IMG/VR virus record: IMGVR_UViG_3300020596_000029
Location: 1 to 52,887 of that record
Source: a virus
Length of the DNA: 52,887 bases
Direction: 5' to 3' (one strand)
Position numbers and translations under genes: made by a program. Positions 2,182 through 9,331 of this stretch are shown here, piece by piece (position 1 is the first letter of the stretch; every line of letters starts with the position of its first letter). The notes under the pieces were generated by a model. That model did no database searches and was not told the origin of the DNA. It saw nothing but the letters and a program-made list of their open reading frames with translations.

Positions 2182-3021
2182 ATGAAAAAATTAGTTATCG
2201 TAATTCTTGCCGTCGTTATAGCTCTGGTGATTGCACCCAACCCAAGCCATGCGGCTGACAGCGGGTGGATCACCACATGCAACTATTCACACTCGTTGCC
2301 CGACGACCCCATCGTTTCACCCAGCCAACCTGGCGCAGCGCACCTACACGACTTCGTAGGCGCGACCACCACCAACGCCGCGTCCACAGGAGAATCTCTT
2401 TTGGCGGGTGGCACAACGTGCCTCGTGCCGGGTGACAAGTCGGCCTATTGGGTTCCGGCACTTTACCGCAATGGGGTACGCCTTCTGCCACAGGGGACAA
2501 GCAAAAACGCTTTGTTCTACTACCGGCGTAAGGGCGCACCCGCCGGTGTAACCGTGCAGCCGTTCCCGCTTGGGCTGAAAATCATTGTCGGCAATGCAAA
2601 AGCCACGTCACCCGCTGAGAATCCGCAACTCGGCAGCCAGATTATTTGGAAGTGTGGGCCTGGCAGCGGAACGGATTTAGCCGCCCCACCTACGCAATGT
2701 AGCAGCGGCATCATGGTTGTGTCGTTGCAGTTCCCGAATTGTTGGGACGGAACAAATCTGGACAGCGCAGACCATCGCTCGCACATGGCCTATCCAAGTG
2801 GCAGCAGTTGTCCCGCGACACATCCTGTCGTGTTACCACGCATCGAATCGTTCTTCCGCTATAACGTCGGCACGGCACCCATCGGCACAATCACGCTGGC
2901 CAGTGGCCCGTACTATACGATCCACCAAGATTTCTTTAACGCCTGGGAGCCAGGCGTATTGCAGAGCTTGATTAACAAGTGCATAAATCCAGGCACCGAC
3001 TGTGGAACTAATCCAAATTAA
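2182..3021 (+). CDS. Secreted DUF1996 protein
   Basis: 279 residues beginning with a textbook signal peptide (MKK, hydrophobic core, PSHAAD cleavage region near residue 24). The mature protein matches DUF1996: DDPIVSPSQPGAAHLHDFVG with TTTNA, then a WDGTNLDSADHRSHMAYP block and CPATHPVVLPRI. The His- and Asp-rich motifs suggest metal or sugar binding, but the biochemical activity of the family is not established. DUF1996 proteins are mostly secreted proteins of fungi and actinobacteria, so a phage copy is notable. The ATG at 2182 is chosen over an upstream start because the signal peptide begins there and GGGAAGGGG lies just before it. The stop overlaps the next start (TAATG), so it is translationally coupled to a virion-like protein. 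Confidence 0.8.
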   Translation: MKKLVIVILAVVIALVIAPNPSHAADSGWITTCNYSHSLPDDPIVSPSQPGAAHLHDFVGATTTNAASTGESLLAGGTTCLVPGDKSAYWVPALYRNGVRLLPQGTSKNALFYYRRKGAPAGVTVQPFPLGLKIIVGNAKATSPAENPQLGSQIIWKCGPGSGTDLAAPPTQCSSGIMVVSLQFPNCWDGTNLDSADHRSHMAYPSGSSCPATHPVVLPRIESFFRYNVGTAPIGTITLASGPYYTIHQDFFNAWEPGVLQSLINKCINPGTDCGTNPN

Positions 3022-6459: not shown

Positions 6460-7011
6460 ATGAGCGAGAAGATAAAGGCTTACGAAGTCGATTTGAACGA
6501 GTTGCGACCTGATCCAAGCAACGCCAATGCAGGGTCAGAACGTGGGCAACACATGATTGACGCCTCGGTGACTGAAACAGGGCTGCATAGAGGCGTTGCT
6601 GTAGACGCTAACGGCTATTTAGTGGCAGGTAACAAAACGCATCAATCGGCGATTGATGCAGGATTTAAGCGCGCCATTATTGTTGAGACTTCTGGCGATA
6701 CCCTAGTTGTCACCAAGAGACTTGACTTTGATTTGATGGATGCCGACCCAAACAACAAGGCAAGACGCGCCGCATATTTTGACAACAGAACTTCTGAAGT
6801 GTCTATGCAATGGAATGTCGAGCAACTGTTTGCCGACATGGGCGCGGGGCTTGACCTGTCGGGCATGTTTCGCGAGGACGAGCTAGACGCGATGCTGGCG
6901 GGGATGCAGGTGCCTGACTTTCAGCCTGTGGATGCAAGCGAACAGCCACGCCTTGACCAAAAGAAACCGATTGTCTGCCCGCATTGCGGCGAGGAATTCA
7001 CTCCAGAATGA
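6460..7011 (+). CDS. ParB/Srx-fold protein with C-terminal zinc knuckle
   Basis: 183 residues. Residues 1-125 form a ParB/sulfiredoxin-like domain (LRPDPSNANAGSERG, then VAGNKTHQSAIDAG, the GNK/R-T/E nucleotide-binding motif). The C-terminus carries CPHCGEEF, half a zinc ribbon. Unlike the second ParB-type protein at 7772 it has no methyltransferase domain. It overlaps mom by four bases (ATGA), so the two are translationally coupled. In phage Mu the zinc-finger protein Com overlaps mom and activates its translation. A similar role here is an inference from the arrangement and the CPHC knuckle. Its 3' part is identical over 75 bases to the methyltransferase gene. Confidence 0.7.
   Translation: MSEKIKAYEVDLNELRPDPSNANAGSERGQHMIDASVTETGLHRGVAVDANGYLVAGNKTHQSAIDAGFKRAIIVETSGDTLVVTKRLDFDLMDADPNNKARRAAYFDNRTSEVSMQWNVEQLFADMGAGLDLSGMFREDELDAMLAGMQVPDFQPVDASEQPRLDQKKPIVCPHCGEEFTPE
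6832..6906 (+). repeat. 75-bp segment identical to 8138-8212
   Basis: Bases 6832-6906 and 8138-8212 are identical and code for the same ADMGAGLDLSGMFREDELDA segment in the two ParB-like proteins. Flanking sequence is much less similar. This suggests recent gene conversion or domain transfer between the two genes. Confidence 0.9.
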
Positions 7012-7694
7012 GCAAGGTAGAACTGCGCGTCGATTGGTGTAACCACGAAGCAGCTAAGTACGCTGTGGAGAAGTGGCACTATAGCTGCAGGATGCCTATG
7101 CCTCCAATACTCAAGATAGGTGCGTGGGAATGCAATCAATTCATTGGTGCGATTTTGTTCGCGCGGGGCAACACGCCGACGCTAGGTCATCGGTACGGAT
7201 TGAAAATGCTGGAAGTTTGCGAGCTGGTTCGCGTTGCCTTGACTAATCATGCTTCGCCTGCGAGTCAGATTGTGTCAGCAGCAATGAAATTACTAGAGCA
7301 TAGTAACCCAGGTTTGCGTCTGATTGTGTCTTTTGCAGACCCCGCGCAAGGTCATAACGGCGCAATCTATCAAGCGATGAATTGGGTATATACAGGCGAA
7401 AGCGAACCATCGTGGCAATGGTTGCACGAGGGGCGTTGGAAGCATAATCGAGAAATGACATCAGGTGCGTTTGGTGGAGCGCGAAAAGTCGCAGACTTAG
7501 CGGTGCTTACCAAGCGTCTGCCGCTTGGTAAGCACCGCTATCTCTACCCGCTTGACCGTGCCATGCGTAAGCAGATTGCACCACTCGCCAAGCCGTACCC
7601 GAAACGTTTACCCCGCGGGCAAAGTGTCGAAGGTGACACGTCCAACGACCAGTTGGAAGAGGCAGGTTCAATCCCTGCTGCCCGCTCTGAATGA
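7008..7694 (+). CDS. mom: Mom-family DNA adenine modification enzyme
   Basis: 228 residues. The core (about 1-165) matches the Mom family: WHYSCRMPMPPILKIG, GAILFARGNTPTLGHRYG, ELVRVALTNH, LRLIVSFADPAQGHNGAIYQ, NWVYTGE and WKHNREM. Mom is a GNAT-fold enzyme that turns adenine into an N6-carbamoylmethyl (glycinamide) form and protects phage DNA from restriction. The conserved tail (GKHRYLYPLDRAMRKQ...PYPKR) is present. The last 25 or so codons coincide exactly with a tRNA-like cloverleaf (7615-7686), so the C-terminal extension looks like read-through of an RNA element rather than protein selected for itself. ATG 7008 overlaps the previous stop. A 19-bp perfect hairpin lies inside the gene (7498-7540). 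Confidence 0.88.
   Translation: MSKVELRVDWCNHEAAKYAVEKWHYSCRMPMPPILKIGAWECNQFIGAILFARGNTPTLGHRYGLKMLEVCELVRVALTNHASPASQIVSAAMKLLEHSNPGLRLIVSFADPAQGHNGAIYQAMNWVYTGESEPSWQWLHEGRWKHNREMTSGAFGGARKVADLAVLTKRLPLGKHRYLYPLDRAMRKQIAPLAKPYPKRLPRGQSVEGDTSNDQLEEAGSIPAARSE
7498..7540 (+). repeat. 19-bp perfect hairpin within mom
   Basis: Left arm 7498-7516 (TAGCGGTGCTTACCAAGCG) is perfectly complementary to right arm 7522-7540, with a five-base TCTGC loop. It sits inside coding sequence for VLTKRLPLGKHRY, just after the catalytic core and about 75 bases before the tRNA-like element. No T-run follows, so it is not a standard terminator. It may be an RNase III or processing site that separates the downstream RNA, or a translation-control structure. 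Confidence 0.85.
7615..7686 (+). tRNA. tRNA-Gly-like cloverleaf at the 3' end of mom
   Basis: 72 bases fold as a full cloverleaf. Acceptor stem: GCGGGCA 7615-7621 with TGCCCGC 7679-7685, 7 of 7 pairs. D arm 7624-7639 (GTGTC/GACAC) with GG in the loop. Anticodon arm 7641-7657 (TCCAA/TTGGA) with loop CGACCAG. T arm 7662-7678 (GCAGG/CCTGC) with loop TTCAATC. G1-C72, C2-G71, G3-C70, discriminator U73 and C35-C36 are the identity elements used by bacterial glycyl-tRNA synthetase. It lacks U33, U8 and A14 and has anticodon ACC, so it should be poor in translation. No CCA is encoded (CTGA follows U73). It overlaps the sense strand of the mom reading frame, so it would have to be processed from the mom transcript. 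A degenerate tRNA gene is the alternative. Confidence 0.7.
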
Positions 7695-7751
7695 CTAATA
7701 AATTGGATATATTGCGCGATGGCTAGAGGCAACACAGATAAGTACACGATA
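7692..7751 (+). repeat. 60-bp direct repeat, copy 1
   Basis: Bases 7692-7751 are identical to 9325-9384. Each copy holds a TGA, an AT-rich stretch and the first 33 bases of the terminase small subunit gene. The pair brackets the ParB-methyltransferase gene, which makes the unit look like an insertion or tandem duplication that could be lost by recombination. Confidence 0.95.
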
Positions 7752-7775
7752 CAAGCATGTCAAGAGGCCAAATGA
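7719..7775 (+). pseudogene. TerS N-terminal remnant (18 codons)
   Basis: The start of the terminase small subunit (MARGNTDKYTI) is duplicated here and continues for only seven unrelated codons to a TGA that overlaps the ATG at 7772 (ATGA). It may act as a leader whose translation is coupled to the methyltransferase gene. The intact copy begins at 9352. Confidence 0.7.
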
Positions 7776-9331
7776 CTGAGAAGATAAGCAAGGCAAATTT
7801 AGCCGACATCCACTTCGATAAGTCGAACGCGAACAAGAGCAGCGAACGTGGGCGCGGCATGATCGAAGCGTCTATGCGTGAGTTTGGCTTTGCCGACGCC
7901 GGAACACTCGACCGAAATAATGTCATAATTGGCGGAAACAAGCGCACGGAGGTAGCGGGTGAAATTGCGCTAAGTGACGAGGCTATCATCATAGACGTGG
8001 ATGGCACGAAGCCTGTGTACATTCGGCGCAATGACCTTGACCTGAGCGACCCAGAGGATGACAGGGCGCGCAAACTTGCCTATGCGCTGAATCGCACAAG
8101 TGAAGTGTCTATGACTTGGGACACCGAGCAACTCCTAGCCGACATGGGCGCGGGGCTTGACCTGTCGGGCATGTTTCGCGAGGACGAGCTAGACGCGATG
8201 CTGGCGGGGATGATGCCTGAGCCTATGACCGACGCGGGCGCGCAGGTGGATAAGGCAGACGAGTTGCGCCAAAAGTGGGGCGTTGAGTTGGGCCAAATGT
8301 GGCAGCTTGGCGAGCATCGGCTGATCTGCGGCGATTGCACAGATGCCGAGGTGGTGGCAAGGGTGATGCAAGGCGAGAAGGCTGTTTTGTGCCACGCCGA
8401 TCCGCCATACGGCATGGGCAAGGAGAATGAGGGCATCGCCAATGACAACCTGTATCGCGAGAAGCTAGACGCCTTCCAGATGGCATGGTGGCACGCGTGC
8501 CGTCCTGCGCTTGAGGACAATGCCAGCGCGTACATTTGGGGCAACGCTGAGGGCCTGTGGCGACTATGGTATTGCAGTGGATTGCGCGACAGCGAACGAT
8601 TGACGTTCCGCAATGAGATTGTCTGGGACAAAGGCGGCGGTGGATTTGGCGTTGGGACTGAGGGGTTACGCTGCTATTTCCCAGAGGAGCATTGTCTGTT
8701 TTTTATGTTGGGCGAGCAGGGATTTAACAACAACGCCGACAACTATTGGGAGGGGTGGGAGCCGATACGCGCCTATTTGGACGACGAACGGCTCAAGATG
8801 GGGTGGAATAATAAATTTGTTGCCGATCTATTCGGTTTCCATCCGAGAATGGCAGATCATTGGTTCAATATTTCGCAATGGTCAATGCCGAAAGACGAAC
8901 AATATAAACGGATGCAACAAGCCGCACGCGGCGACGCCTTCAAGCGGGACTATGACGACCTCAAGCGGGACTATGACGACCTCAAGCGGGACTATGACGA
9001 CCTCAAGCGGGACTTCTACGCCACGCGTGCCTACTTCGACAACGCCCACGACAATATGACCGACGTGTGGCGTTTCAACCGCGTGCATAACGAAGATCGA
9101 TATGGTCACGCCACGCCCAAGCCCGTTGATATGATTGCGCGAGTCATCAAGAGTAGCACGCCAGAGGGGGGCATCGTTTACGTTCCCTTCGCGGGGACGT
9201 TGCCAGAGGTGATCGCCTGCGAGCAACTTGGGCGCAAGTGCCGAGCCGTGGAAATAAGTCCCGCCTACGTCGCCGTTGCCTTGCAACGCTTTGCTGATTC
9301 GACAGAAAAAACGTGTGTGCTAGTTGACTAA
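7772..9331 (+). CDS. ParB-domain DNA methyltransferase
   Basis: 519 residues. Residues 1-150 form a ParB/Srx-like domain with GGNKRTEVAG. A beta-class amino-methyltransferase domain follows, with catalytic DPPYGMG (about residue 210) and a C-terminal SAM-binding region (VPFAGTLPEVIACEQLGR). The usual motif is DPFxGSGTT, so the Asp, the second Gly and the Thr pair are changed, and SAM binding may be weakened. Residues of about 391-415 are four KRDYDDL heptads, as in related phage enzymes. It probably methylates adenine (N6) or cytosine (N4) as anti-restriction beside mom. ATG 7772 has AAGAGG five bases upstream and overlaps the TerS remnant stop; ATG 7757 is possible. The stop codon lies inside the second 60-bp repeat. 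Confidence 0.85.
   Translation: MTEKISKANLADIHFDKSNANKSSERGRGMIEASMREFGFADAGTLDRNNVIIGGNKRTEVAGEIALSDEAIIIDVDGTKPVYIRRNDLDLSDPEDDRARKLAYALNRTSEVSMTWDTEQLLADMGAGLDLSGMFREDELDAMLAGMMPEPMTDAGAQVDKADELRQKWGVELGQMWQLGEHRLICGDCTDAEVVARVMQGEKAVLCHADPPYGMGKENEGIANDNLYREKLDAFQMAWWHACRPALEDNASAYIWGNAEGLWRLWYCSGLRDSERLTFRNEIVWDKGGGGFGVGTEGLRCYFPEEHCLFFMLGEQGFNNNADNYWEGWEPIRAYLDDERLKMGWNNKFVADLFGFHPRMADHWFNISQWSMPKDEQYKRMQQAARGDAFKRDYDDLKRDYDDLKRDYDDLKRDFYATRAYFDNAHDNMTDVWRFNRVHNEDRYGHATPKPVDMIARVIKSSTPEGGIVYVPFAGTLPEVIACEQLGRKCRAVEISPAYVAVALQRFADSTEKTCVLVD
8138..8212 (+). repeat. 75-bp segment identical to 6832-6906
   Basis: Second copy of the shared ParB-domain segment. Identity is total over 75 bases and drops at both ends. 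Confidence 0.9.
8941..9013 (+). repeat. 21-bp tandem coding repeat (KRDYDDL)
   Basis: Three full and one partial copy of a 21-base unit starting CAAGCGGGACTATGACGACC encode heptads inside the methyltransferase. The unit keeps the frame, so copy number can change without disrupting the protein. Heptads of this type occur at the same place in related phage methyltransferases. Confidence 0.9.

Follow-up and report, generated by a model that had tools for sequence, protein, structure and literature searches.

tRNA-like structures and transfer-messenger RNA (tmRNA) are charged RNAs with roles other than decoding, and the FemXAB enzymes are transferases with a GNAT fold. In Staphylococcus aureus, Gly-tRNA supplies the Fem enzymes with glycine, and the tRNA-Gly isoacceptors that serve them lack G18G19 and have their binding to EF-Tu weakened through the T stem (PMC4052509). 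L/F-transferase and other aminoacyl-tRNA-dependent transferases also divert aminoacyl-tRNA from translation (PMC4810233). The Mom protein of phage Mu produces N6-carbamoylmethyl (acetamido) adenine (PMC10286901). Here, we describe an RNA shaped like a glycine tRNA that overlaps the 3' end of a mom gene in the IMG/VR virus record IMGVR_UViG_3300020596_000029 (positions 1 to 52,887; this whole stretch of 52,887 nucleotides is called the window below), and show that the window RNA, noted at first as a single case, belongs to a large RNA family.

The locus compares with each of these systems in part. The likeness to FemXAB lies in the GNAT fold, and in a Gly-tRNA donor and a special tRNA-Gly with weakened EF-Tu binding, both of which are predictions for Mom; however, the acceptor of FemXAB is a peptidoglycan precursor rather than DNA, their tRNAs are full cloverleaves, and the genes of enzyme and tRNA do not overlap. 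L/F-transferase and its kin differ in that their acceptors are protein N-termini or lipids and their tRNAs are ordinary, and tmRNA has an mRNA-like domain, which the mom RNA lacks. Mu mom differs in that it is under the control of com and that no tRNA-like RNA is linked to it. Canonical tRNA-Gly (RF00005) shares with the mom RNAs the cloverleaf, the acceptor GCGGGC..GCCCGCU, an NCC anticodon and the identity bases, but it has U8, U33, a regular T stem and a D arm, features that the mom RNAs often lack, and these mostly fall below the Rfam cut-off.

The window RNA and its mom gene

The first-pass annotation of the window described a cloverleaf with perfect acceptor, anticodon and T stems that lies in sense over the end of mom, and our analysis bears this out. 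ARAGORN calls a tRNA-Gly(acc) on the plus strand (Table 1), which overlaps mom in sense orientation over its final 27 codons. The RNA folds as a cloverleaf at -35 kcal/mol (z -4.5), and 0 of 200 dinucleotide shuffles were as stable. A covariance model, R1, built from class I of the family (22 elements from other phages, the window element being left out of training), finds the window RNA at 7615-7689 with 65.1 bits (E=8e-16), the next-best site in the window scoring 14.8 bits. The RNA bears G1-C72, C2-G71, G3-C70, U73, C35 and C36, which are the identity bases of bacterial glycyl-tRNA synthetase (GlyRS). With A at position 8 and G at position 33, the RNA lacks U8 and U33 as had been noted, and CCA is not encoded.

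The Rfam tRNA model (RF00005) has no match over its gathering cut-off anywhere in the window, and the window RNA is therefore not a canonical tRNA gene. The best sense match to Rfam in the window is tRNA-Sec (20.8 bits), and an antisense match to Plastid-ycf2 (31 bits) resembles the complement of a tRNA shape; ARAGORN calls no tmRNA in the window. On the minus strand, an antisense frame at 7544-7747 reads SERAAGIEPASSNW. Spurious peptides of this kind are often annotated opposite tRNA genes.

The window protein is a true Mom by Pfam, PHROGs, fold and catalytic serine. It scores 149.8 bits against PF25680 (E=1e-43; cut-off 27.1) and matches phrog_1384 of PHROGs with E=3e-50, and its structure model (predicted local distance difference test, pLDDT, 92.5) aligns with that of Mu Mom S124A (PDB: 8bv8) with a Z of 19.3 over 198 residues. 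Mutation of the catalytic S124 inactivates Mu Mom; its equivalent in the window is S86, and this position is S or T in 34 of the 34 Moms aligned. Among the 50 best structure matches of the window model, the closest non-Mom structures are GNATs (Z 11-12.6); Fem-type structures are not among these 50, an absence that is uninformative.

Linkage of the RNA to mom

Relatives of mom were fetched and the sequence following each gene was examined. The loci are related by descent, and the counts given here are not independent events. A similar cloverleaf in related mom genes, which the first-pass annotation proposed to look for, recurs behind mom in many phages. Several loci of quite different sequence have a tRNA-Gly call by ARAGORN at the end of mom, for example L005 (ACC), L008 (TCC), L015 (TCC), L020 (TCC), L102 (CCC) and L134 (ACC). 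Two public phage records, those of Microbacterium phage Warren and Salinibacter phage B2_17, carry an annotated tRNA-Gly behind mom, and in Arthrobacter phages Martha and Wyborn the RNA lies behind mom unannotated. When cloverleaves were scanned for by structure only and sorted afterwards by anticodon and discriminator, an NCC anticodon with U73 was found in 69 of 122 mom 3' regions, compared with 3/122 on the reverse strand, 0/119 upstream, 1/119 further downstream and 1/610 dinucleotide shuffles. A bulged A in the T stem had led an earlier scanner, which used a 17-base T arm, to misread or overlook most members.

The covariance models extend this picture. Over 89 loci (421 kb), R1 gives 80 matches, almost all at the mom 3' end, and a second model, R2, agrees with it; R1 matches are also found in the genome loci L117, L123-L126, L128 and L133-L135. 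The covariance model matches 61 of 80 loci with phiEf11-like moms. It also matches almost every locus of L301-L316, which form another divergent Mom group, retrieved with L015. Matches above 55 bits in 10 whole genomes or records all lie directly behind mom, three of them behind moms not returned earlier, and the highest score of an ordinary host tRNA-Gly gene in 274 genomes is 52.4 bits. Using RNA motifs alone, without mom, on 2.9 million viral contigs, we obtained 177 exact matches in the loci returned. Of these, 170 directly follow a mom of the same strand, and one match is too close to the contig end; the other six comprise four from a diverged Mom branch and two (L400, L447) that come after a ParB-like gene beside a non-Mom protein. 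The link between RNA and mom is thus strongly supported in both directions.

This linkage bears on the possibility that the RNA is a decoy or regulator of host GlyRS, of glycine supply or of a tRNA-cutting defence, carried with mom in a counter-defence cassette. Phage tRNAs can act as decoys or replacements, and mom, which counters restriction, has ParB-like and methyltransferase genes next to it. The RNA, however, tracks mom itself across many phages and hosts and rarely another gene, and the exceptions sit behind a different gene set (phrog_7858 with a ParB-like gene), so that we regard such a role as quite unlikely.

In these exceptions the same RNA, at 72-92 bits, follows a ParB-like gene beside a 451-amino-acid non-Mom protein, phrog_7858, for which no function is assigned (Table 1). 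The C-terminal half of this protein is perhaps GNAT-like as judged by eye, hidden Markov models detect no similarity of the protein to Mom, and the structure model of the C-terminal half is meaningless (pLDDT 33). It is possible that phrog_7858 is a second enzyme family that uses the RNA.

The diverged Mom branch (L387, L431, L432, L536) carries the RNA and has the C-terminus LPFSEIDxRGAGMYKG in place of PYPK; in L387 the mom gene is apparently split between frames. Where mom copies stand in tandem (L010, L013, L043, L102), the RNA is found behind the last copy only, and in L010 a stop codon interrupts the first copy.

Architecture and covariation of the RNA family

The elements form two cleanly aligning classes, class I with a D arm (alignment A5, 22 sequences) and class II (A4, 20 sequences), which has about 12 bases in place of the D arm. 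These two alignments served for counting covariation; a further alignment, A3, which mixes bulged and unbulged T arms, was set aside. Standard pairs fill 97.6% of pair cells in both classes, and double-sided changes occur at 16 of 21 pairs in class I and at 12 of 17 in class II. When the pairing partners were slid by 1-3 columns as a control, pairing fell to 31-44%. RNAalifold recovers the same structure unaided and adds the pair 32-38 in class I. Stem covariation, which had also been suggested as a check, is therefore extensive: all stems covary, and the RNA is a real structured family. The acceptor pairs 1-72 and 2-71 are invariant in the two class alignments, as is expected of identity bases. 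A bulged A on the 3' side of the T stem is present in 107 of 128 distinct elements, the window RNA being unbulged, and CCA is encoded in 87 of the 128. Among nine relatives, L015 is the only one to pass the Rfam tRNA cut-off.

Could the element instead be the remnant of an attachment site, or a chance cloverleaf? The 3' ends of tRNAs are common integration sites, but here the entire cloverleaf is preserved with compensatory changes in all stems, a member unseen by the model scores 65 bits, and only one of the 610 shuffles produces a like structure. We find this explanation extremely improbable.

Glycine identity and decoding features

Bacterial GlyRS recognises its tRNA by the first acceptor pairs together with U73, C35 and C36. 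Decoding depends on U33 and on a suitable base 34, and EF-Tu recognises the T-stem pairs 49-65, 50-64 and 51-63. The glycine identity set first read in the window is nearly invariant in the family: bases 1-2 are GC in 128/128 distinct elements, G3 is found in 123/128 and U73 in 127/128. In the 101 anticodon arms that could be assigned, by pairing alone, C35C36 is present throughout (101/101), base 34 is free (U in 52, A in 38, C in 10, G in 1), and a pair 32-38 is possible in 97. The loss of U33, which was thought at first pass to keep the RNA out of translation, is seen in the G33 of the window and in over half of the family, U33 being retained in 46 of the 101 arms. As the marks of the synthetase are kept while U33, U8, the D arm and the regular T stem are often lost, the family appears fit for GlyRS and unfit for the ribosome. 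Judged by its bases, the RNA looks fit to be loaded with glycine and unsuited to the ribosome.

These features also speak to whether the element is a phage tRNA-Gly of the ordinary kind, which would supplement host translation and stand behind mom by chance. Phages often carry tRNA genes, ARAGORN accepts the window RNA, L015 passes the Rfam cut-off, and the Warren and B2_17 elements are annotated as tRNA-Gly. An ordinary tRNA would nevertheless have to account for glycine alone being found, and at mom alone, for the absence of U33 in more than half of the members, for the closed pair 32-38, the bulged T stem and a class without a D arm, and for the anticodon ACC in 38 of 101 arms, an anticodon that to our knowledge is almost never used for glycine in bacteria. 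We consider this account very unlikely.

One mom-linked tRNA-like element (L217:1425-1498, anticodon TCC) has the discriminator A73 in place of U73, and is perhaps fitted to a different GlyRS.

Overlap with mom and action in trans

In most loci the RNA forms part of mom. The mom frame stays open across the RNA in 105/128 elements, compared with 91/256 for the two remaining frames; two of the three frames show the effect clearly, and the trend is weaker after thinning at 70% identity (14/23 vs 16/46, p=0.07). Pure chance as the source of the open frame is disfavoured by the full counts, with the thinned p as given. Processing of the RNA would remove the last codons of mom from the message, so that each transcript may yield either the enzyme tail or the RNA. 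Three loci (L018, L309 and L315) carry the RNA immediately behind mom but on the other strand, which implies a separate transcript and a trans-acting RNA there. The proposal at first pass that enzyme and RNA share one gene therefore stands in so far as the mom frame tends to run through the RNA, but it does not extend to the loci in which the RNA is separate or on the opposite strand.

The overlap with the coding end, and the open frame with its thinned p, would also suit a cis-acting structure of the mom mRNA, such as a stabiliser, processing site, terminator or translational control, that is tRNA-shaped in order to recruit RNase P or GlyRS. Neither the opposite-strand copies nor those one gene away or upstream (L258, L267, L275) could act in cis, and a strict U73, C35C36 and encoded CCA would be purposeless in a mere structure, which makes a cis-acting role unlikely.

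Distribution among Moms

The RNA is present at the mom 3' end in 134 of 211 non-redundant moms, in which the window mom is represented by the identical L001. One large, supported Mom clade has it in 131/152. On the Mom tree, 10 changes suffice to account for its presence, compared with at least 54 for shuffled labels. A few distant moms instead have a glycine tRNA nearby, one gene downstream in L258 and just upstream in L267 and L275.

At L234:2071-2166, a cloverleaf (GCGACCC...GGGTCGCTCCA) with the anticodon ACC stands directly behind a Mu-like Mom (55% to Mu), which is rare in the Mu branch. Hairpins take the place of the tRNA 3' of mom in Enterococcus phage phiEf11, Paenibacillus and Lysinibacillus (Table 1).

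Proposed mechanism

We argue from these sequence patterns that the RNA is probably a dedicated, non-translating tRNA-Gly, predicted to be charged by GlyRS, that serves as the glycine donor for Mom. The source of the RNA would be the 3' end of the mom transcript or else a gene of its own next to mom, and host GlyRS would charge the RNA with glycine. Mom, a GNAT-fold transferase, could then take the glycyl group from the RNA to modify N6 of adenine, and the modified phage DNA would be protected from restriction. Speculatively, glycyl transfer to N6 may be followed by a Smiles-type rearrangement on the base that would leave the nitrogen of glycine as N6 and the former N6 as the amide. The result would be the glycinamide (N6-carbamoylmethyl) product that Mu is known to make, and such a route would fit the atoms. 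Overall, the interpretation made at first pass is partly supported.

Several points weigh against a Gly-tRNA donor. A review names glycyl-CoA (CoA, coenzyme A) as the donor of Mom (PMC7824862), and the GNAT structures closest to the window Mom model, among its 50 best matches, are mostly CoA-dependent enzymes. L015, L267 and L275 resemble near-canonical tRNAs, and a few of our counts rest on covariance-model matches, which favour members resembling the training set. The Mom clade that contains Mu has the RNA in 3/59, an unfiltered covariance-model search of the Mu genome found no copy of it, and firmicute, several actinobacterial and some enterobacterial moms are without it. Since Mu Mom, whose product is known, does without the RNA, the RNA is no universal requirement of Mom, and Mu would have to use host Gly-tRNA. 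It is conceivable that every Mom uses Gly-tRNA, many through a phage RNA of their own that evolved solely for it and the Mu type through host Gly-tRNA, with the glycyl group rearranged on the base; we see the chances of this broader proposal as even.

Our results suggest that the phage draws on a transfer RNA for an amino acid with which it decorates its DNA. If the RNA is indeed a glycine donor for Mom, this would be a DNA base modification with a group taken from aminoacyl-tRNA, and we know of no earlier one. It would also define a new class of non-translating phage tRNA, overlooked because tRNA finders and Rfam mostly fail to score it, and open a defined way of placing glycinamide on DNA in vitro. 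A dedicated glycine tRNA beside mom points to a donor other than the glycyl-CoA that the review assumes (PMC7824862). The literature that we searched contained no report tying Mom to tRNA, with bioRxiv and most subscription journals outside the search, so that a preprint or paper could exist.

Neighbouring genes and feature coordinates

Table 1. Coordinates of the tRNA-Gly-like RNA, its parts and associated features (window positions unless a locus is named)
Feature	Position	Strand	Description	Evidence
tRNA-Gly-like RNA	7615..7687	+	positions 1-74, in sense over last mom codons	ARAGORN, fold, covariance model R1
Acceptor stem, 5' half	7615..7621	+	GCGGGCA, pairs with 7679-7685; 7 bp, perfect	ARAGORN, fold
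D arm	7624..7639	+	5 bp, 6-base loop	fold
Anticodon arm	7641..7657	+	loop CGACCAG, G33 replacing U33; 5 bp perfect stem	ARAGORN, fold
Anticodon	7648-7650	+	ACC	ARAGORN, fold
T arm	7662..7678	+	GCAGG-TTCAATC-CCTGC, unbulged type; 5 bp perfect stem	fold
Acceptor stem, 3' half, and U73	7679..7686	+	3' half 7679-7685, U73 at 7686	ARAGORN
mom	7008..7694	+	Mom-like DNA modification protein, 228 aa	Pfam PF25680, phrog_1384, Mu Mom fold
ParB-like gene	6460..7011	+	directly upstream of mom	phrog_620 E=2e-17
DNA N6/N4 methyltransferase	7757..9331	+	ParB-like N-terminus; downstream of RNA	PF01555 E=4e-26, phrog_498
phrog_7858/ParB-like loci with RNA	L447:713-2824, L578:2501-4606, L579:2501-4594, L580:1-1305			
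Hairpins 3' of mom	L021 2606-2743; L111-L113, L115 ~2605-2740; L121 ~2590-2720		some with ACGCGTGG-like motif	

The ParB-like gene is a common neighbour of mom and stands beside it in the annotated phages L018-L021. Within the window, the small ParB-like gene (6840-6906) and the ParB-like part of the methyltransferase gene (about 8146-8212) hold near-identical DNA, which reads as a partial duplication bracketing the window mom. Inside the window mom, at 7493-7545, lies a 24-base inverted repeat with a 5-base spacer, and in the near-identical L002 the loop of this hairpin is inverted relative to the window, as if it were able to flip.
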